Shown: in pieces, positions 4,356 to 26,944 of the stretch
How the letters are laid out: the number at the start of each line of letters is the position of its first letter
Position numbering within the stretch: the first letter of the stretch is position 1
Assembly (NCBI GenBank): GCA_903907855.1
Contig: CAIVPT010000005.1
Coordinates: forward strand, 1 to 49,413
Direction of reading: 5' to 3'
From: an uncultured Synechococcaceae cyanobacterium
Lineage (GTDB): Bacteria; Cyanobacteriota; Cyanobacteriia; PCC-6307; Cyanobiaceae
Length of the DNA stretch: 49,413 nt
Translations under genes and position numbers: made by a program
Notes under the pieces: model-generated
What the model saw: only the letters and a program-made list of their open reading frames with translations
Told to the model about the DNA's origin: nothing
Databases searched by the model: none

Positions 4356-4616
4356 ATGGCCTGCCCGCATTGCGGTTGCCACCTGGTGTCCCTCAGCAGG
4401 GAGCGATCCTGTCCGCTGGTGTGCAGCCGCTGCAACCACCCGATCCAGCGGGAACTCGATCCCGCGGGCCGTCGCCAGCGGCTGGGCAACGTGGCCACCC
4501 TGCTGGCACTGGTGCTTGCGGGCGGTGTGCTCTTTGCCCTCTCTGCCCTTCACGACGCCCGCACCCCGCTGCCGGAGTCGGTGGAGCAGCAGGAGAACGG
4601 GGGGGTGAGCGACTAA
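4356..4616 (+). CDS. Small zinc-ribbon membrane protein
   Basis: An 86-residue protein with a CPHC...CSRC zinc ribbon (Cys3, Cys6, Cys23, Cys26, with an extra Cys8 and Cys19) followed by one hydrophobic helix around residues 45-65 and an acidic tail. The ATG at 4356 is preceded at good spacing by GAGGGG (4341-4346), so it is preferred over an in-frame GTG at 4320. The last four bases overlap the stop of the convergent DedA gene. Function unknown; zinc-ribbon plus one helix occurs in many small bacterial proteins. The readable ribosome-binding site and the ordered cysteines argue that it is real. Confidence 0.6.
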   Translation: MACPHCGCHLVSLSRERSCPLVCSRCNHPIQRELDPAGRRQRLGNVATLLALVLAGGVLFALSALHDARTPLPESVEQQENGGVSD

Positions 4617-5245
4617 CGGCGCCGCCAGAGCCACACCAGCACGGCCCCTGCCGCCGCCACCGCAAGGGCGCCGAGCAGGAGGCCGCCAACCGGTTCAAGC
4701 CAGGTGAGCACCTTGGAATAGTGGGGCCCCAGGCCCAGCCCCGCCAGGGTGAGGGCGCTCACCCACAGCAGGCTGCCGGCGGCGGTCCAGCTGAGGAAGG
4801 CGGGCTGGGGCATCAACTCGATGCCGGCGGGCACCGACACGAAGGTGCGCACCCCCGGAATCACGCGCCCCCAGAACACCACCGCCACCCCATGGCGGAG
4901 GAACCAGCGGCGGCTGGCGGCCAGGGCGGCCGGGCTGAAGCCCAGCCAGGTGCCATGGCGCTCGGCGAAGCGCTCGAGCCGCCGTTCGTTGATCAACCGC
5001 CCCAGGCCGTACCAGCACCAGGCACCGAGCACGCTGCCCAGCACCCCGGCCAGGATCACCGGCACCAGCTCCAGCCGGCCCTCATGCACCAGGAAGCCGG
5101 CGAAGGGCAGGATCAGCTCCGCCGGCATCGGTGCCACCACGGTTTCCAGCAGCATGGCCACCGCAATGGCCGCATAACCAAGCAGGGGGCTGGCCTCAGC
5201 GGCGGCCCCCAGCAGGCGCGGCACTGCGGTGATCCAATCGATCAT
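4613..5245 (-). CDS. DedA family membrane protein (first of two)
   Basis: A 210-residue integral membrane protein of the DedA/SNARE-associated (VTT) family. Seen: the re-entrant loop motif APMPAELILPFAGF near residue 43 and the second conserved block FWGRVIPGVRTFVSVPAGIE near residue 122, which carries the family's conserved arginines. Known roles include lipid-carrier (undecaprenyl phosphate, phosphatidylethanolamine) flipping and support of the proton motive force; the role here is not known. It starts four bases after the stop of the upstream P-type ATPase, so the two are probably co-transcribed. Confidence 0.9.
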   Translation of the reverse strand: MIDWITAVPRLLGAAAEASPLLGYAAIAVAMLLETVVAPMPAELILPFAGFLVHEGRLELVPVILAGVLGSVLGAWCWYGLGRLINERRLERFAERHGTWLGFSPAALAASRRWFLRHGVAVVFWGRVIPGVRTFVSVPAGIELMPQPAFLSWTAAGSLLWVSALTLAGLGLGPHYSKVLTWLEPVGGLLLGALAVAAAGAVLVWLWRRR

Positions 5246-5249
5246 GGGT

Positions 5250-8069
5250 TCAGGCGTCGCTGTGGCCGCGACGCCTCAGCTGACGCACCAGCTTCTCGAT
5301 CTCCAGATAAAAGAAGAACAGCACGCTCACGCCCACGCAGAGCCCCAGATCCCGCAGCGGCAGGGGTGTGGTGCCGAAGAAGGAGGCCAGGGCGGGCACG
5401 TAGAGCAGGGAGAGCTGCAGGGCTGAGGTGAGCAGCACCGCCCAGAGCAGCCAGGGGTTGGAGAAGGGGGGCACCTGCCAGAGGGGCCGCTCGCTGCGGG
5501 CGGAGAGGGCGTGGCCCATCTGGGCCAGGCAGAGGGTGGTGAACACGATGGTTTTCCAATCGAGACCCTGGCGGTGGGCGTAGAGCATCAGGGCGATCAC
5601 GAAGATCGCGAACACCACACCCACCCGCAGGATGTAGCGGCCGACGCCGCGGGCGAAGATCGATTCGCCCGGCACGGCCGGCGGCCTGTCCATCAGGCCA
5701 TCCTCGGCGGGCTCCAGCGCCAGGGCCAGGGCCGGCACGCCATCGGTGACCAGGTTCATCCAAAGGATCTGCAGGGGGGTCATCGGGACCCCCACCAGCC
5801 CCACCAGCGGCGCGGCGGCGATCGTGATCAGCTCACCAACGTTGCTGCCGAGGATGTATTTCACGAAGCGGCGGATGTTGGCGTACACCAGCCGCCCCTC
5901 CTCCACCGCGTTGACGATCGTGGCGAAGTTGTCGTCGAGCAGCACCATGTCGGCGGCCTCCTTGCTCACCTCGGTGCCGGTGATGCCCATCGCCACCCCG
6001 ATGTGGGCCTGCTTGAGGGCCGGGGCGTCGTTGACGCCGTCGCCGGTCATCGCCACCACCTCGCGGCGGGCCTGCAGGGCGCGCACGATGCGCAGCTTCT
6101 GCTCGGGAGGCACCCGGGCGAACACGTTGCAGGAACCCACCCGCTGCTGCAGGGCGGCGTCATCGAGGGCCTCCAGTTCGCGGCCGATGGTCACCTCCCC
6201 ACCGGGTTCGGCCAGGCCGATGCCGGCGGCGATCGCCCGGGCGGTGAGCGGGTGGTCGCCGGTGATCATCACCGGCCGGATGCCGGCGTGGCGGCAGCGG
6301 GCCACCGCCTCCGGCACCTCGGGACGGGCGGGATCGAGCTGGGCCATCAGGCCCAGCAGCACCTGGCTTTCCAGCTCCCGCTCCGGGCTGGGGTGATGGG
6401 GGGCGCAGGCGAAGGCGAGCACCCGCAGGCCGGCGGCGGCCAGCTCGCGGGCCTGCTCCAGCCACCACTGGCGCTGGCTTTCATCGAGGGGGGCGACGCC
6501 ACCACCATCGAGCCAGCGGTCGCAGGTGGTGACGATCACCTCGGGGGCACCCTTGCTGAGCAGGAGCACCGAGGAGCCGGCGGCGGCTTCGCCCAGGGGG
6601 GCCTGCAGGTGGCCGTTGGGATCGGCCACCCACACCGCCATCAGCTGTCGTTCGGAGCTGAAGGGGATCTCGGCGCGGCGGGGGTAGCGCTCACGCAGAT
6701 CGAAGCCATCCAGCCCGGCCTTGGCGGCCACCACCACCAGCGCCCCCTCGGTGGGGTCGCCGAGGATGTCCCAGCTGCGGTCCGCCTGCTGCCTCAATTC
6801 GGCATCGCTGCAGAGGGTGCCGGCGGCGAGCAGAAGGTCGCGCGCGCCCTCCACCAGGCCCGGTCGGGCGCCGGCGGGGGCCGGCAGGGGCCGATGGGTG
6901 AAGCTCCCCACCGGCTCATAGCCCTGGCCGCCCACCCGCACCGCCTCGGTACCGCAGCGCAGCTCCTCCACCACCTGGCGGTTCTGGGTGAGGGTGCCGG
7001 TTTTGTCGGAGCAGATCACGGTGACCGAGCCGAGGGCCTCCACCGCCGGCAGGCGGCGGATCAGGGCGGCCCGCTGCACCATCCGCTGGGTGCCGATCGC
7101 CAGGGTGACGGTGATCACCGCCGGCAGACCTTCCGGCACGATCGCCACCGCCATCGACAGGGCCACCTCCAGCAGGTTGAGCAGCTGTTGCTTCATCAAC
7201 AGGCCCAGGCCCATCACCAAGGCCACCAGCGCCAGAGCTGAAACCACCAGCACGTTCGCCAGGCCATCGAGCCGCTCCTGCAGCGGCGTGGATTCGCCGC
7301 CGGCGGTGCTGATCAGCTCGGCGATCTGGCCCAGCTCGGTGGCCATGCCCGTTTCGGTGATCAGGGCGATGCCGCGGCCGCGGGCCACCTCCGTGCCCTG
7401 GAAGAGGCAATTGCGACGGTCGAGCACCGGAGTATCGGCCTCAAGCAGCAGCTCCGCCTGCTTGGCCACCACCTCCGCCTCGCCGGTGAGGGCCGCCTCC
7501 CGCAGACCCAGCTCGGCCACCTCCAACGCCCGGCCGTCGGCGGGCACCCGATCGCCAGCCTCCAGCCGGATCAGGTCGCCGGGCACCAGCTCCTCGCTGC
7601 TCAGGCGCTGCCACTGACCATCGCGGCGCGCCTGCACCTGGGGCTGGGCCATCTGCCGCAGGGCCAGCAGGGCCTGCTGGGCGCGGCTCTCCTGCAGGTA
7701 GCCGAGCAGGGCATTGAGCAACACGATCAGCACGATGGCGATCGCGTCTTTGGGGAACTTCTGCTCCACCGTGGCCACCCCGGCCGAAACGGCGGCCACC
7801 GCCAGCAGCATGATCAGCATCACGTTGCTGAACTGGTCCCAGAGGATGCGCAGGTTGCTACGGCCGGCCGCCAGCTCCAGCCGGTTTGCGCCATAGCGCT
7901 CCAGCCGCCGGGCCGCCTCGGCGCTGCTGAGGCCCTCCCGGGTCGCGTCCAGCCGCCGCAGGCATTCCTCTGGGGGCAGGGCATGCCATTCGCGCGGCGT
8001 CTTGGCCAGGGGACCGGGCAAGGCGGAGGTACCGGCCAACGGGCTGGAGGACGTGGTGGAGCGAGCCAT
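5250..8069 (-). CDS. P2A-type cation-transporting ATPase (PacL/Ca2+-ATPase-like)
   Basis: A 939-residue P-type ATPase with, in order, an N-terminal cation-ATPase domain, an actuator domain with TGE (LTGEAEVV), the fourth-helix ion site PEGLPAVITVT, the phosphorylated Asp in SDKTGTLT (Asp355), a nucleotide-binding domain, the hinge TGDGVNDAP and six C-terminal helices. The PEGLP motif and overall layout match the Ca2+-type P2A group, of which cyanobacterial PacL is a member. It probably exports Ca2+ or Mn2+ from the cytoplasm. It is translated divergently from the KimA-like gene 77 bases away and is followed directly by dedA. A second, different P-type ATPase lies at 42595-45396. Confidence 0.9.
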   Translation of the reverse strand: MARSTTSSSPLAGTSALPGPLAKTPREWHALPPEECLRRLDATREGLSSAEAARRLERYGANRLELAAGRSNLRILWDQFSNVMLIMLLAVAAVSAGVATVEQKFPKDAIAIVLIVLLNALLGYLQESRAQQALLALRQMAQPQVQARRDGQWQRLSSEELVPGDLIRLEAGDRVPADGRALEVAELGLREAALTGEAEVVAKQAELLLEADTPVLDRRNCLFQGTEVARGRGIALITETGMATELGQIAELISTAGGESTPLQERLDGLANVLVVSALALVALVMGLGLLMKQQLLNLLEVALSMAVAIVPEGLPAVITVTLAIGTQRMVQRAALIRRLPAVEALGSVTVICSDKTGTLTQNRQVVEELRCGTEAVRVGGQGYEPVGSFTHRPLPAPAGARPGLVEGARDLLLAAGTLCSDAELRQQADRSWDILGDPTEGALVVVAAKAGLDGFDLRERYPRRAEIPFSSERQLMAVWVADPNGHLQAPLGEAAAGSSVLLLSKGAPEVIVTTCDRWLDGGGVAPLDESQRQWWLEQARELAAAGLRVLAFACAPHHPSPERELESQVLLGLMAQLDPARPEVPEAVARCRHAGIRPVMITGDHPLTARAIAAGIGLAEPGGEVTIGRELEALDDAALQQRVGSCNVFARVPPEQKLRIVRALQARREVVAMTGDGVNDAPALKQAHIGVAMGITGTEVSKEAADMVLLDDNFATIVNAVEEGRLVYANIRRFVKYILGSNVGELITIAAAPLVGLVGVPMTPLQILWMNLVTDGVPALALALEPAEDGLMDRPPAVPGESIFARGVGRYILRVGVVFAIFVIALMLYAHRQGLDWKTIVFTTLCLAQMGHALSARSERPLWQVPPFSNPWLLWAVLLTSALQLSLLYVPALASFFGTTPLPLRDLGLCVGVSVLFFFYLEIEKLVRQLRRRGHSDA

Positions 8070-21770: not shown

Positions 21771-22490
21771 ATGACTCATTCAATTCGGCCTGCAATTCCT
21801 CGCAGCCCACTTCACTTGGCGTCTAGTCTTGCGATGCGAGTTGCATATATTGCTGTTGCAACGAGCGCTCTCGCTCTAGGTTCGAGGCCTGCTAAAGCTC
21901 TCATCACTATCGACCCCATACTTACCCTAAACGGGGATCAACAGCAAGGTTCATCGGGTGGTCCGTGGACTTTTGGCTTCTCGTTCACAACCTCTTCAGT
22001 TCAGACATTTAATGCTCTTGGTGTAGCCGATACTGACTCTATTGGCTTAAGCCAATTGCATGATATCGGACTCTACGACACCTCCGGAAGCCTTCTGGCG
22101 TCGGTGCTTGGGGTTACTGGAACAGCAGACGCTGTCCAAGATGGTTTTGTCTGGGCAGCGATTAATCCCATCACGCTTAACCCTGGCACGTATATCGTAG
22201 GCGCTTCGGGCCAATGGGATGTTGACCGGTATGCTTATTCAGGCACTTTTAGCGTAGACGCAGGTTACACCTTTAATATAGGGAAATTTAGCCAAAGTCT
22301 TTCCCTTGCATTTCCATCCCAAGATATTGGGGTTAACTTTTTTGGCGCCAACATCTCATCCACCGTCACCCCTCCCGTCCCGGCTCCCCTTCCAGTTGTC
22401 GGTGCAGCTGCGGCATTTGGCTACAGCCGCAAGCTGCGGAAACGGCTCAAGATCAGCAAGACGCCTGAGGTGATGAGCGCCATCGATTGA
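21771..22490 (+). CDS. Secreted protein with PEP-CTERM-like C-terminal tail (copy 1, intact)
   Basis: A 239-residue protein with an N-terminal signal peptide (ATSALALGS..., likely cleaved after AKA; a second ATG at 21834 would also precede it) and a Thr/Ser/Gly-rich beta-type body resembling DUF4082-like surface domains (WTFGFSFTTSS, LHDIGLYDTSG). The tail has P-A-P-L-P, then VVGAAAAFGYS, then RKLRKR, followed by 16 extra residues. The tail has the three parts of PEP-CTERM/exosortase substrates and closely matches the tails at 26876 and 30347. GC is much lower than in pyrC, suggesting transfer. A terminator follows at 22520. No exosortase gene is in the window. Confidence 0.8.
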   Translation: MTHSIRPAIPRSPLHLASSLAMRVAYIAVATSALALGSRPAKALITIDPILTLNGDQQQGSSGGPWTFGFSFTTSSVQTFNALGVADTDSIGLSQLHDIGLYDTSGSLLASVLGVTGTADAVQDGFVWAAINPITLNPGTYIVGASGQWDVDRYAYSGTFSVDAGYTFNIGKFSQSLSLAFPSQDIGVNFFGANISSTVTPPVPAPLPVVGAAAAFGYSRKLRKRLKISKTPEVMSAID

Positions 22491-22519
22491 GCCCTTCAAC
22501 CTGTGGAGTAATTCTATCT

Positions 22520-22545
22520 GCCCCGCCTTTGAGGTGGGGCTTTTT
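22520..22545 (+). terminator. Rho-independent terminator of PEP-CTERM-like gene 1
   Basis: A nine-base-pair stem GCCCCGCCT/AGGTGGGGC (one G-U pair) with a TTG loop, followed by TTTTT, 30 bases after the stop codon. Confidence 0.9.
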
Positions 22546-22562
22546 GGTGCACTAAACTACGG

Positions 22563-22760
22563 TCAATACTTCTCGAACCGTGCCGCGTGGATGGATATGT
22601 ATTGCACCGTTGGTTGGGTGTTTCTGTGCCCGAGATAGACCTGAATAAGGCGGGTGTCCGAGTCCTGGTCAGCGAGAGCCAAGCCTATGCCTTTTTCTTC
22701 TCGACGTACTTGCGCATGACAAGGCTGACGGTCGAGCGGTGCATGGGCTTGCGCTGTTCA
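22563..22760 (-). pseudogene. Tyrosine recombinase C-terminal fragment
   Basis: Read on the minus strand, the last 50 codons give GLALADQDSDTRLIQVYLGH, then RNTQPTVQYISI and ARFEKY with a stop at 22563-22565. This is the classic end of a phage or transposon integrase: A-x-x-G-x-D-x-R-x-I-Q-x-Y-L-G-H-R-N with the box II His and the nucleophilic Tyr in T-V-Q-Y. Upstream, an alternative frame (HRSTVSLVMRKY) ends in a stop, and no Arg-box domain can be followed, so the gene is decayed. It faces the integrase fragment at 20683 and belongs to a different subfamily. Confidence 0.7.
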
Positions 22761-23141
22761 CTTAGGAAGAACGTACGCCTGGCCCAGAGGACGCCTGTTC
22801 ACGGCATCAACCGGTCTCGTCTCTGGCCTGCGCGTTCTGCCTAGCGTCTGGCTCGCCGGTTCCAGCGACCGTTCATCGCGCCGCCTACGTCGTGTCGTCG
22901 TCGGCGTTGATGCGCTCGAAGGATGGGCAACAACGGGCATTAGTGCCCCGTGGTGAAGCCCACTGCCGGCAGACAATCAGACCCTGCACTCCTACCCCGA
23001 GTCCATCAGCTCCAGATCAGCCGTGATACCGCTTGGCAGCCGGAAAAATAACGGGGTCTCAGCGGGGCGAGTGCCATGAACGATTCCATTGGTCAGCCCG
23101 CCATGGTGAAACCTCTGGATTGTCGCAAGCGTCTCAGCGGA
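22761..23141. other. Stretch with no supportable gene
   Basis: No frame here shows recognisable motifs, a ribosome-binding site or convincing codon use. It probably contains further decayed sequence upstream of the integrase fragment plus the region downstream of the MerT-like gene. Confidence 0.5.
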
Positions 23142-23552
23142 TCAACCGAGCAGGGGCAATAGAAAAGTAACCACCAGGGCCGCTCCGTAACCCAGCAGGG
23201 AGACACTGAACAGCACTCGGGCTTGGCGCTGCAGGCGCAGGCAGGCGCGGCGGCGGTGTGGATCGATCGGGCAGCTGCCGCTGCTGGCCTGGCGCCATAA
23301 GGCCACCCCAGCCACCAGCAGACCACCCCCCGCCAATCCGAACACCATCGGCTTGTTTGCGGAGAGCAGCACCAGGCTCGGGACGGCGCTGACCAGACTG
23401 GCCATCACCGACCCCGCCCCCAGCAGCACGAGGGTTGCTGGCAGCACACAGCACACCAGGGTGCCGGAGGTGAACAGCAGACTGATCGCCTGGATCAGCC
23501 GCAGGCGCCTGCTCTCCGCCATCGCTTGGCGGCCATCAGCTCGGGTCATCAT
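23142..23552 (-). CDS. MerT-like heavy-metal transport membrane protein
   Basis: A 136-residue protein with three or four helices. The first helix carries a vicinal pair Cys34-Cys35 (LVCCVLPATLVLLGAGS) and the loop before the last helix has Cys94 and Cys104 (SCPIDP...RRRAC). This arrangement is that of MerT, whose two Cys pairs pass Hg2+ through the membrane. It overlaps the upstream MerP-like gene by one base (TGATG), so the two are translated together. There is no merA, merB or merR nearby, so the metal need not be mercury. An alternative ATG is at 23549. Confidence 0.7.
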   Translation of the reverse strand: MMTRADGRQAMAESRRLRLIQAISLLFTSGTLVCCVLPATLVLLGAGSVMASLVSAVPSLVLLSANKPMVFGLAGGGLLVAGVALWRQASSGSCPIDPHRRRACLRLQRQARVLFSVSLLGYGAALVVTFLLPLLG

Positions 23553-23890
23553 CAGTTGGTTGTTGCGGGCGCACCGCTACCCGCCGCCGATGGCCCTTCA
23601 ATACGACGGACGTCGTAGCCGGCATCCCGGATGGCCTTCTTCAATGTGGCCGTATCGAGGGTGGCGCCAGGACGGGCCGTGATCACCACCATTCCTTTGG
23701 AGAGATCGATCTGCACCGATTCGGTGCCAGGTACTGCCTTGAGCCGCTTCTCGATGCCCTGGGCACAGAAGGAACACACCATGCCGTTGATGGAGATCCG
23801 GTAGAGGGAGGCGCCAGCCAGGGCAAAACCGTGGCAGAGACTGGCCAACCCGAGGGCAAGCAGTGGCAGGAAGCGTTGCGAGATGGTCAT
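23552..23890 (-). CDS. Periplasmic heavy-metal-binding protein, MerP-like (HMA domain)
   Basis: A 112-residue protein: signal peptide (LLALGLASLCHGFALAGA) and one HMA domain with the metal motif G-M-V-C-S-F-C (Cys39, Cys42) and the usual beta-alpha-beta pattern ending AIRDAGYDVRR. Like MerP it should bind a soft metal in the periplasm and hand it to the Cys pair of the downstream membrane protein. A flexible Gly/Ala/Thr tail follows. It sits eight bases after the candidate outer-membrane protein gene and overlaps the MerT-like gene. Confidence 0.85.
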   Translation of the reverse strand: MTISQRFLPLLALGLASLCHGFALAGASLYRISINGMVCSFCAQGIEKRLKAVPGTESVQIDLSKGMVVITARPGATLDTATLKKAIRDAGYDVRRIEGPSAAGSGAPATTN

Positions 23891-23898
23891 GGGGTTCG

Positions 23899-24675
23899 TT
23901 AATAGGTGTAGGTGAGATTCAGACGCACCGCTCCAGAGGTGCTCACCCCAGCCTCCGCCAACACCCGGCGGTGGAGAACCCGCAGCAGGGGAGTGATCTC
24001 CACCCCCTGCTCGAGCCCCTCCATGGTGCGAGCTTCCAGCATCAGCCAGGGCTGCCAGCGGTTGTAATCGGCGGAGGTGAGGGCCACCCCTGCCCTTGCC
24101 GAGGTGATCAGCCTCTCACTATCGGCGGCCTGGAACCAACGGGTGGAGGCACCAACGTAAATCCGCCTGGTCTCAAAGTCCGCCTGGGCCCAGGGGGACC
24201 AGGCAGCCCGATGGCCAACGCTGGTGCCATCTCCGGGAAAGACGGTGAGCAGGCCAGCACCGACGCCGGCCCAGAGGTTGGCCTGGTACTGGGCACCATT
24301 CCAGCGGTGGAGCCGCTGGGTGACCATCAGCAGACTCCAAAGCTCCTGCCCGCCGTCATCGCCGTCACCCATGACGCCGTTGTCCGTCTCGGGGTTCATC
24401 CAATAGAGGGCTGGGCCCACTCCCGTGCTGCGCGTGAGGGCCGGAGTCACCGTGAAGGACGACACGAGGGGTTCGACCTCGCCGCTGACCACAATGCTGC
24501 CCTTGTGGGCCAGAGGCGCGGCGATCGCAGCAGTGCTGGAGGCTAATTCCATCCCTGCAAGCAAAACCAACCCAGTGATCAGTGAGAAAATCACAACAAG
24601 AAAGTGAGCTGCCCGAACAATGAATTGGGATGAGCTTAACCCCCATTGCCCGGGCCCTGTCGATCCAGTGGGCAT
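23899..24675 (-). CDS. Candidate outer-membrane beta-barrel protein of the MerTP-like unit
   Basis: Up to 258 residues. A hydrophobic segment (FLVVIFSLITGLVLLAGMEL) ends in an AIAAP-type cleavage site; the remainder alternates polar and aromatic residues in short strands and ends in NLTYTY, an aromatic C-terminus typical of outer-membrane barrels. The repeated W-x-P-W and GAxTRW stretches fit a barrel. The start is uncertain: the ATG at 24675 leaves about 25 residues before the signal helix. It is first of a three-gene unit with the MerP- and MerT-like genes. I do not recognise the family; a porin for metal exit or entry is an inference. Confidence 0.6.
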   Translation of the reverse strand: MPTGSTGPGQWGLSSSQFIVRAAHFLVVIFSLITGLVLLAGMELASSTAAIAAPLAHKGSIVVSGEVEPLVSSFTVTPALTRSTGVGPALYWMNPETDNGVMGDGDDGGQELWSLLMVTQRLHRWNGAQYQANLWAGVGAGLLTVFPGDGTSVGHRAAWSPWAQADFETRRIYVGASTRWFQAADSERLITSARAGVALTSADYNRWQPWLMLEARTMEGLEQGVEITPLLRVLHRRVLAEAGVSTSGAVRLNLTYTY

Positions 24676-24881
24676 GGCCTTCAGGGGAGCTCGATCCAGG
24701 TTCGGTGCGGCGGGGATTCGAGCAGCTGGAAAGGATCTGCCTCAGACCGGCAGCGCTCGCCTGCAGCCTGTGAACAACCAAAAGGTCATCAACGGCCAAC
24801 CGATTGGGGGAACAGCAAGCCCAGGTGATCCGATGAATGCCAGGATTCCCTCCAGTCGCTCCGGCGAGCCGCGGCGTTGCC

Positions 24882-26129
24882 ATGAACGTTCTTGAGCGCG
24901 CCGAATGCCTGCTGGATGCCGGCAGCTCCGGCAACATGAATTTCACGGTGATTGCCAGCTACTGCGGTCGCCTGGAGCTTCCCGTTCTGCAGAAGGCACT
25001 GGTTGCCCTGCAGGCGGAGCACCTGCTGCTGCGGAGCACCCTGCTCTGGGAGGGCGATCACCCCCGCTTCGCCCCGGCCACCGCAGCGGTTCCAGTGGCG
25101 CTGCTGCCCTGGCCGGGGGACGACGATCCGGAGGGCGCCGCCCGAGCCTGGAAGCCGGCGGCCAGGGCCTCTCTCGCTGAGCGCTTCGGCGGTGGCGGCG
25201 ATCCGCTCTGGCGGATCAGCTGGCTGCAGGGGCTGGAGGCCGGTGAGCTGCTGCTCACCTTCCATCACGCCATCGCCGATGGTCTGTCGGCGATGGCGCT
25301 GGTGCAGCAGCTGTTCGCGTTGCTGGCGGCCGGCGAGGCCGGCCCGCAGGAGGAGCGGCAGGGCCACTGGGATAGCTTCGGCCCCGATCTCAGCCGCAGC
25401 TTCGCCGGTCCGCGGCCCCCTGCCGCTGCGGTGCAGGAGCTCTCCGATCGGCAGGACATCGGCCTGAGCACCAGCTACGGCCTCGAGCAGCTGAACGCCT
25501 CCGCCAGCCGGGCCCTGCTGGCCTGGACCCGTCAGCGGGGCCTGCGCCTGAACGCCACCCTGCATGCCGCCTTCCTGCAGGCCCTGGTGGCGGCGGAGGT
25601 GGTGCCGGCGCAGACCGTCGCCACCACCGTGGTGAACCTGCGCCCCCTGGCCACGCCGGCAATGCCCTGGGAGTTGATGCGCCTCCTGCGGGTCTGCGTG
25701 GAGACCCCGGTGAGCGTCGATCCCGATGAACCTCTGGAGCATCTGGCCACGGAGCTCCATGGGGTGCTGCAGCAGCAGCTGCGGCAGGGGGAGCCGCTGC
25801 AGGCCCTCGATTCCATCGCGGCAGCCCTTGACGACGACCCCTCGCCCCAGCAGTTCTGGCGGCGCAGCTGGCGCCAGGGCGGGGTGATCACCAACCTCGG
25901 CCGCGTGCCTGTGCGGGAGCGCCACGGCGATCTCACCCTGCAGCGGCTGTTCTTCGTGGCCAATGTGGAGCCGATCGCCCTGCCCGATCGGCCCCTGGCG
26001 GTGCTGGGGGCCATGAGCTTCAACGATCAACTGAGCCTCACCTGCCTGCACATCGAACAGCAGCTGGATGACCCTGGCGCAGCGGCGGTGCTGGCCGACA
26101 TGAAGCGGCGGCTGTTGCTCCTGGTGTGA
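24882..26129 (+). CDS. Stand-alone condensation-domain / PapA-like acyltransferase
   Basis: A 415-residue protein with the catalytic motif HHAIADG at residues 128-134 (HHxxxDG) and the two-lobed layout of chloramphenicol-acetyltransferase-like condensation enzymes: an N-terminal lobe beginning LERAECLLDAG and a C-terminal lobe with NLRPL. It probably transfers an acyl group from a thioester to an alcohol or amine. No carrier protein, adenylation domain or ketosynthase lies near it, so it is closer to PapA5- or wax-ester-type enzymes than to part of a peptide synthetase. Start chosen at ATG 24882. It is divergent from the MerTP-like unit across 206 bases. Confidence 0.75.
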   Translation: MNVLERAECLLDAGSSGNMNFTVIASYCGRLELPVLQKALVALQAEHLLLRSTLLWEGDHPRFAPATAAVPVALLPWPGDDDPEGAARAWKPAARASLAERFGGGGDPLWRISWLQGLEAGELLLTFHHAIADGLSAMALVQQLFALLAAGEAGPQEERQGHWDSFGPDLSRSFAGPRPPAAAVQELSDRQDIGLSTSYGLEQLNASASRALLAWTRQRGLRLNATLHAAFLQALVAAEVVPAQTVATTVVNLRPLATPAMPWELMRLLRVCVETPVSVDPDEPLEHLATELHGVLQQQLRQGEPLQALDSIAAALDDDPSPQQFWRRSWRQGGVITNLGRVPVRERHGDLTLQRLFFVANVEPIALPDRPLAVLGAMSFNDQLSLTCLHIEQQLDDPGAAAVLADMKRRLLLLV

Positions 26130-26236
26130 CCGGATCCAGACCAGCAGGACCCGCCTATGCCAATCGCGTCACTGGCACCAAAGGCCAGGCTTTTCACGGC
26201 GGAGGACGAAAATGCACAAAATCCTCAAAGATTTTC

Positions 26237-26944
26237 GTGACTTTTCTTACTCGCTTCTCCCAGCACCTCAAGCGCGTATCGCCCTTGGTTATTGCCCCAG
26301 CCGCGTTGCTGCTGAGCCAAGGCCAAGCCCATGCCGTCCTAAACGTAAACATCTTCGACGACGGTCCCAACCTTAAAGTCACCGTCACAGGCTCAATCTC
26401 CCCCGGAAATTACGGCTCATCTGCCGCCACTCCCTCCGACTGCTTTGGCAATGGGTCGTTGAGCGGTGAATTAAATGCGACCGATCCCTCCACATTGTGC
26501 ACAGGCTTTAACGTTACTTCGACCTTCTCCGACATCACCGGCCCCGCTGGCTTCGGTGGAAATGGCCTCCTTTTCCCCGCAAGCTCTGTGACAGGCCCTA
26601 GCTTTCAGATGTACCCAAGTTCATACAATACTGGCACCAATAACGTCTCCGCATTTGATGCATACAAAAATACCTATGCACTCGATCCCTCCTACGTCTT
26701 GGGCGAACAGTTCTTCAGCAGCGCAACCTACAACGGCACCAACTTAGCCGCCCAAGGCTTCACCACCACGGGCCTCATCGGCACCTGGACCATTGATGGC
26801 ACATCAGAGTCCATCAATGTTTTTGTGGGTCCCCCCCCGGTTCCCGGTCCACTCCCCCTGTTTGGCGCCGGTGCTGCCCTCGCCTGGAGCCGCCGGCTGC
26901 GCAAGCGCACCACCTCTTCGGTGATCACCCCGCCCCAGGAGTGA
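26237..26944 (+). CDS. Secreted protein with PEP-CTERM-like C-terminal tail (copy 2, start disturbed)
   Basis: From the in-frame GTG at 26237 this is 235 residues: a signal peptide (VSPLVIAPAALLLSQGQAHA), a Ser/Gly/Thr/Asn-rich beta-type body, and the tail P-G-P-L-P, LFGAGAALAWS, RRLRKR plus 12 residues. A much better start signal, GGAGGA six bases before ATG 26211, is one frame off. Removing one T from the TTTT at 26232-26235 would join MHKILKDF to VTFLTRF and restore a single frame. The gene may therefore be frameshifted or start weakly at GTG. The body shows no similarity to copy 1. A terminator follows. Confidence 0.7.
   Translation: MTFLTRFSQHLKRVSPLVIAPAALLLSQGQAHAVLNVNIFDDGPNLKVTVTGSISPGNYGSSAATPSDCFGNGSLSGELNATDPSTLCTGFNVTSTFSDITGPAGFGGNGLLFPASSVTGPSFQMYPSSYNTGTNNVSAFDAYKNTYALDPSYVLGEQFFSSATYNGTNLAAQGFTTTGLIGTWTIDGTSESINVFVGPPPVPGPLPLFGAGAALAWSRRLRKRTTSSVITPPQE

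Follow-up and report, generated by a model that had tools for sequence, protein, structure and literature searches.

Three short genes on one contig of an uncultured Synechococcaceae cyanobacterium raise the question of what a protein pair resembling the mercury carriers MerT and MerP does beside a candidate outer-membrane protein and apart from any mer enzyme. The window (the whole stretch of DNA analysed, 49,413 nucleotides) is a contig of an assembly of 3.0 Mb in 320 contigs, and the three genes lie on its reverse strand. The first gene of the operon (23899-24675) encodes a predicted outer-membrane beta-barrel of 258 amino acids with the C-terminal residues YTY. After a gap of 8 bases it is followed by the gene (23552-23890) of a 112-residue, putatively exported single-domain HMA protein, MerP/CopZ-like, with a PF00403 domain and the motif GMVCSFC. 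This gene overlaps by one base that of a MerT-like, putative inner-membrane protein of 136 residues (23142-23552) with the pair Cys34-Cys35 and the loop pair Cys94/Cys104. All of these motifs had been named in the original prediction, and all are found in the ORFs. A search of positions 22400-25000 with one simple consensus, which leaves some promoter types outside its reach, gave no promoter-like match.

The MerT-like protein contains exactly four cysteines (34, 35, 94 and 104). Hydropathy indicates three hydrophobic stretches, with Cys34-Cys35 in the first and Cys94/Cys104 in the loop ahead of the last, and all four cysteines are invariant across 12 aligned MerT-like sequences. When the family profile is compared with MerT of plasmid pMOL28 (L073), used as the yardstick, hhalign gives 93.6% (E 2.1e-7) over 109 columns with the Cys-Cys motif paired. 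Four of the 12 members match PF02411, the Pfam MerT family, at E up to 0.01 (best E 1.1e-6), and four match NF010314, its NCBIfam counterpart (best E 1.4e-5). At E 0.01 the window protein alone has no match in Pfam or NCBIfam, NF010314 included; PF02411 was likewise without a match in the window genome and in the congener G020, although control genomes gave none either. By these results the membrane family is distantly homologous to MerT, a relationship carried by the family rather than by the window protein on its own. The relatives at L028, L065 and L071 score 20-22 bits against NF010314, whose cut-off is 150, and for this reason the label MerT-like is used in place of mercury transporter. 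The MerP/MerT layout proposed from the motifs is thus upheld by the family comparison. As in pMOL28, a small membrane protein with Cys-Cys in its first membrane stretch and a cysteine pair in a loop is encoded next to an exported HMA partner; the loop cysteines are at 76/82 in pMOL28 MerT and at 94/104 in the window protein. In contrast to MerT/MerP, a barrel gene heads the window trio, and copper-type neighbours occur at relatives' loci.

Single-sequence searches with the MerT-like protein were too weak to be useful: in the window's phylum they matched 2 of 386 genomes, and among plasmids none. The MerT-like profile matched 3 of 42 genomes of the window's genus, one of these matches being a fragment at a contig edge. 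In the tree, the proteins of the window and of G020 group together (99/98). At L004, from a Synechococcaceae MAG, a MerT-like fragment lies at a contig edge with a dihydroorotase-like gene (assigned by eye) nearby, as in the window; over 49 codons, stop included, this fragment differs from the window gene by six synonymous and two amino-acid-changing base differences. These resemblances are the ground for taking the window as cyanobacterial.

The HMA protein scores 44.6 bits against PF00403, above the gathering cut-off of 24.8, and carries the CxxC motif. Its best NCBIfam matches are to a CopZ-type family (55 bits) and to MerP (TIGR02052, 35.9 bits against a cut-off of 92.55), all of them below cut-off. 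The hydrophobic N-terminus, assessed by eye, is the basis for regarding the protein as exported. The HMA proteins at L023, L024, L025 and L026 carry His-rich N-terminal extensions, and that of the window has none.

The first gene belongs to a predicted barrel family that has no Pfam or NCBIfam entry. Searches of both collections with the 12 known members returned only single chance-level matches (E 0.0035 and 0.0069), with none to PF13557 or to the PcoB/CopB families. All 12 proteins end in F or Y, and their alignment has conserved columns that include D-x-E-T and Q-x-N and no conserved cysteine. AlphaFold2 models, for which three sequences were used, have low confidence scores: the window protein has a pLDDT of 58.4 and a pTM of 0.51, and the protein of L006, from a Thiotrichales MAG, 53.2 and 0.46, with an N-terminal helix and twelve strands. 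The structural neighbours of the low-confidence window model include a BrkA domain (Z 16.9), KdgM (15.9), a COG4313 channel (4rl8; 14.6) and PcoB (7pge; 11.2), and those of the equally tentative L006 model include KdgM (15.9), the COG4313 channel (13.6) and PcoB (9.4). Twelve-strand barrels thus rank high for both low-confidence models, and the first gene is predicted, in fold and location, to encode a 12-strand outer-membrane barrel. Autotransporter domains, KdgM and NanC were considered as relatives, and their similarity was ascribed to a common barrel shape and not to kinship. Foldseek alone found nothing at E 0.001 (best E 5.9e-3), and comparing three profiles (barrel, MerT-like and the second-barrel profile described below) with PDB sequences gave nothing useful. 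Single-sequence searches with the barrel were too weak as well, matching one of 60 relatives; the L006 barrel matched no plasmid, and a scan of viral contigs with the barrel gave none that was confirmed. The earlier assignment of the third partner to a beta-barrel is therefore consistent with modelling of the window and Thiotrichales proteins, at low confidence, and with the F or Y ends of all 12 members.

The three genes form a conserved unit. A contig scan with the window membrane protein identified at least three loci: L004, L005 (an Akkermansiaceae MAG) and L006. L005 and L006 each carry a barrel-like, an HMA and a membrane ORF, and their barrel-like ORFs match the window barrel with BLASTP E-values of 2e-12 and 3e-13 in single comparisons. 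A profile of these three barrels matched 9 of 274 genomes in the class of L006 and 2 of 194 in the phylum of L005, the source genome included in each count. With the window, this gives a set of 12 barrel loci, and in a profile search ten of them (the window, L005, L006, L021-L026 and L028) keep the order barrel, HMA, MerT-like on one strand. Gaps between the genes are -11 to +50 bases in nine of the ten trios, the exception being L006, where a MAPEG-family gene (4566-4991) lies between HMA and MerT-like. Of the two remaining loci, L027 meets the contig edge right after the barrel, and L029 has barrel and HMA with no MerT-like match in 11 kb and an efflux-type permease nearby. The trio is known from Cyanobacteria (window), Verrucomicrobiota (L005) and Pseudomonadota (L006), and from seven further loci. 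This recurrence in distant genomes rules out chance adjacency of the genes.

Co-occurrence was also assessed across the 274 genomes of the class of L006, where the MerT-like profile matches 43 at E 0.001, including a few weak matches. A MerT-like gene is present in eight of the nine barrel genomes, against 1.4 expected under independence, and the ninth is that of L027; the hypergeometric P of 1.6e-6 is only indicative since the genomes share kinship. The co-occurrence check suggested with the original prediction accordingly agrees with a unit of three genes, both in gene order (10 of 12 barrel loci) and in these genomes. The trio is found conserved and its first gene is not predicted to be soluble, the two outcomes on which the prediction would have turned. 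The barrel is not indispensable to the pair, however, since HMA/MerT-like pairs for which no barrel was found exist (G020, L007, L040/L088, L070 and L072). Among them is the congener G020, which has the HMA and MerT-like genes and no barrel match.

The window lineage probably acquired the trio. The 12-member barrel profile matches one of 386 genomes of the phylum, the window's own, and GC at third codon positions (GC3) is 0.73-0.80 in the three genes, compared with 0.86-0.88 in three neighbours. This rarity and the low GC3 suggest that the trio was gained from outside. Two PEP-CTERM-like neighbours have GC3 values below even those of the trio. These two flanking proteins (21771-22490 and 26126-26944), whose PEP-CTERM-like ends were recognised by eye, are also lower in GC than the rest of the genes measured.

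A mer operon that has lost merA might be thought to leave such a pair behind. The original prediction gave merA and merR as absent, and the window genome indeed has no gene above the cut-off of TIGR02053 (MerA) or TIGR02051 (MerR), a difference from MerT/MerP systems. The TIGR02053 cut-off was passed in none of the 13 genomes examined, the window's included, and all 13 had weaker matches. For TIGR02051 (cut-off 150.85 bits) the best scores are 55.7 in the window genome and 105.3 in G020, both weaker MerR-type matches, although no control genome passed this cut-off either. Because none of the 13 genomes has a MerA-grade gene, a remnant of a mer operon is considered less likely.

The barrel family of the window is not the only one found next to MerT-like genes. 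Of the 43 genomes with a MerT-like match, loci were obtained for 30, comprising 8 trios and 22 others, and two further contexts from the other 13 genomes (G486 and G550) were added. An HMA match lies beside the MerT-like gene at 21 of the 22 other loci. At 17 of the 22, the profile of a second barrel-like family matches an ORF with at least 50 bits within the ~3-kb locus; 13 of these ORFs are strong matches upstream of HMA and four are weaker (55-87 bits) and downstream of MerT-like. Four second-barrel ORFs were scanned, of which two contain PF13557 and two gave nothing. PF13557 is equated here with the COG4313 channels. These channels are 12-strand barrels linked with phenol degradation, according to the available text of PMC4493636. 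An ORF of ~244 amino acids occurs at L051, L058 and L060 (larger stretches L089, L090 and L092), and may also be barrel-like, as its C-terminal F and its distant resemblance to the ORFs of PF13557 type (phmmer E 8e-4 to 8e-9) suggest. No barrel-like gene was found at L040 (stretch L088) or L059 (L091), the latter being without HMA too. A barrel-like gene of another family is thus present at 20 of the 22 other loci, and at 21 of 24 with the two added contexts: L071 (G550) has the ~244-residue ORF, and at L070 (G486) no barrel-like ORF was found. The barrel, MerT-like and HMA profiles (A5, A6 and A7) and the second-barrel profile had no match in 13 control loci from the MerA search, totalling 53,278 bases. 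With barrel-like genes next to 20 of the 22 other MerT-like loci examined, MerT-like systems commonly seem to have an outer-membrane partner. The first and second families may be separate recruitments, because hhalign gives a probability of only 8.9 for their homology. This value, and the lack of PF13557 in the 12 members, set the window barrel apart from the COG4313/PF13557 channel, whose 12-strand fold is a neighbour of the low-confidence models.

Mobile elements carry related gene sets. On a Vibrio plasmid (L008), the HMA/MerT-like pair is accompanied by a ~244-residue gene, and these profiles detected no barrel at L007, on a Variovorax plasmid, or at L072, on a contig of the viral collection. 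The pair at L072 (~4640-5366, on a 129-kb contig) came from a scan of viral contigs with the MerT-like profile; its MerT-like protein lies near that of the Variovorax megaplasmid in the tree, without starred support, and an SmpB-like ORF (by eye) is found near the pair. The HMA gene at L008 (6000-6671) seems to be annotated from too early a start: its coding sequence runs, in a different frame, into a MerT-like ORF missing from the gene table, which is itself incomplete. At both L008 and L071 the ~244-residue barrel-like gene is accompanied by a GDCCVxC gene known from annotation or from a family test. The MerT_CopZ_Se/GDCCVxC gene sets of NCBIfam likewise comprise MerT-like and HMA parts, whereas the window trio has no adjoining GDCCVxC gene (by reading) and no fusion. 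Thioredoxin-like and CcdA-like membrane ORFs (by eye) lie near MerT-like sets at L066 (5103-6811), L068 (7729-9314) and L090 (1901-3492), joined at L066 and L068 by a MerR-type regulator; these ORFs may provide the pathway with a reducing branch.

These loci bear on whether the barrel belongs to the metal path at all. The HMA and MerT-like proteins might only hold or sense metal at the inner membrane, the barrel being a co-expressed general porin off the path. The pairs for which no barrel was found agree with such an arrangement, but two or three barrel-like families adjoin most MerT-like genes examined, and we consider it improbable. A putative route crossing both membranes, as originally proposed, fits the trio and gains from the barrel-like genes near most of the other MerT-like loci examined.

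The loci of relatives give the best indication of the metal that would be carried along this route. CsoR-family genes occur at 7 of the 12 barrel loci, directly past MerT-like at L005, L006 and L023-L026 and one ORF past HMA at L029; the count is based on a local profile from four of these genes, and at L005, L023 and L029 curated families were tested as well. The six complete genes have Cys-His-Cys at the ligand positions, a pattern that marks Cu(I) sensors, and the L006 gene ends with its contig after the first cysteine. No CsoR match was found in the window (49 kb), at L021 (9 kb), L022 (11 kb) or L028, or at the contig-edge locus L027, and the window genome has no match to PF02583, the CsoR family. 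Genes for CusF (E 8e-24), a multicopper oxidase and an outer-membrane efflux protein are co-oriented at L028. L029 has a multicopper oxidase (copper_res_A, 432 bits, below the cut-off of 479) and an ArsP_1 permease resembling SaoE and the SO_0444 Cu/Zn exporter, below both NCBIfam cut-offs. Three of the 12 barrel loci (L006, L025 and L027) have TonB-dependent receptor genes beside them or close by, those at L025 and L027 being ZnuD-like, far below the cut-off. Copper is the likeliest metal on the evidence of these loci, and the case is made from relatives because the window and its genome are without a CsoR match.

An inward relay might instead carry mercury, silver, zinc or another soft metal. 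The distant homology to MerT and MerP and the ZnuD-like receptor genes at two loci would suit such a cargo, as would the extra cysteine that four MerR-type regulators (L008, L070, L071 and one of two at L069) have among the nine inspected next to other MerT-like pairs; such a cysteine goes with divalent metals. Set against this are the absence of a MerA-grade gene from all 13 genomes and the CsoR ligand pattern with its copper neighbours, and such a relay appears unlikely.

The direction of transfer is less easily read from the loci. CsoR normally releases its genes under copper excess, and CsoR control counts against an inward reading because copper-induced release fits disposal equally. The trio could then be a small efflux route, in which MerT-like would give cytosolic Cu(I) to HMA and HMA would pass it to the barrel. 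The CsoR-family genes found at 7 of the 12 loci are in keeping with this, as are the CusF, multicopper oxidase and outer-membrane efflux genes at L028, and the efflux-type permease at L029, where no MerT-like gene was found, is counted against inward transfer as well. However, the trio has no energy-coupled part, MerT is described as carrying Hg(II) to the cytoplasmic MerA in the available text of PMC8261052, and a stand-alone barrel has been argued to work inwards. That argument, as given in the available text of PMC9210255, concerns PcoB, the barrel of a copper-defence operon, which admits copper and alone sensitises cells; its authors consider that such a barrel lacks the energy for export. 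PcoB/CopB barrels resemble the one predicted for the window in location and copper context, and PcoB is among the structural neighbours noted above, whereas there is no sequence family match and the window barrel is partnered by HMA and MerT-like proteins. The TonB-dependent receptor genes at 3 of the 12 loci are counted for inward transfer. Outward disposal is judged unlikely on balance, and transfer from barrel to HMA to MerT-like to cytosol is favoured since MerT/MerP import, the trio lacks an energy-coupled part and PcoB admits copper.

The trio may accordingly be read as an enzyme-free, three-part relay that takes a soft metal, likeliest copper, inward through the whole envelope, a proposal to which we give an even chance. 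The barrel would open an outer-membrane path for the soft metal ion. In the periplasm the CxxC pair of the exported HMA protein would bind the ion, as in MerP, and the MerT-like protein would take it over on Cys34-Cys35 and pass it via Cys94/Cys104 to cytosolic ligands. The metal would most likely be copper, which the HMA and MerT-like proteins would handle as Cu(I). The unit probably serves copper homeostasis or defence, with controlled entry leading to buffering, export or cuproprotein supply. We infer the metal, the inward direction and the purpose from relatives.

To our knowledge, the usual picture of Mer transport names no outer-membrane part. Metal enters the periplasm by diffusion in that picture. 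The available text of PMC8261052 gives only MerP and inner-membrane proteins as the transport parts. A relay of MerT/MerP type is therefore already known, and its coupling to an outer-membrane channel gene is new, insofar as no report of the barrel-HMA-MerT-like trio was found in the literature searched, which was mostly openly accessible. The loci described here suggest that relatives of mercury importers often have an outer-membrane channel of their own. More tentatively, and with a likelihood somewhat short of even, MerT-type relays may generally have three parts that together span the envelope, one of them a dedicated outer-membrane channel, and different barrel families would have supplied this channel on at least two occasions. 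Most such relays would carry copper or another soft metal without a mer enzyme, and the window would represent a branch with an unnamed barrel family. The trio draws attention to this family, which is without a Pfam or NCBIfam entry, and hints at its cargo. If true, a conserved outer-membrane partner would fill a gap in the picture of Mer transport and give a testable model of how copper or another soft metal enters the cell.
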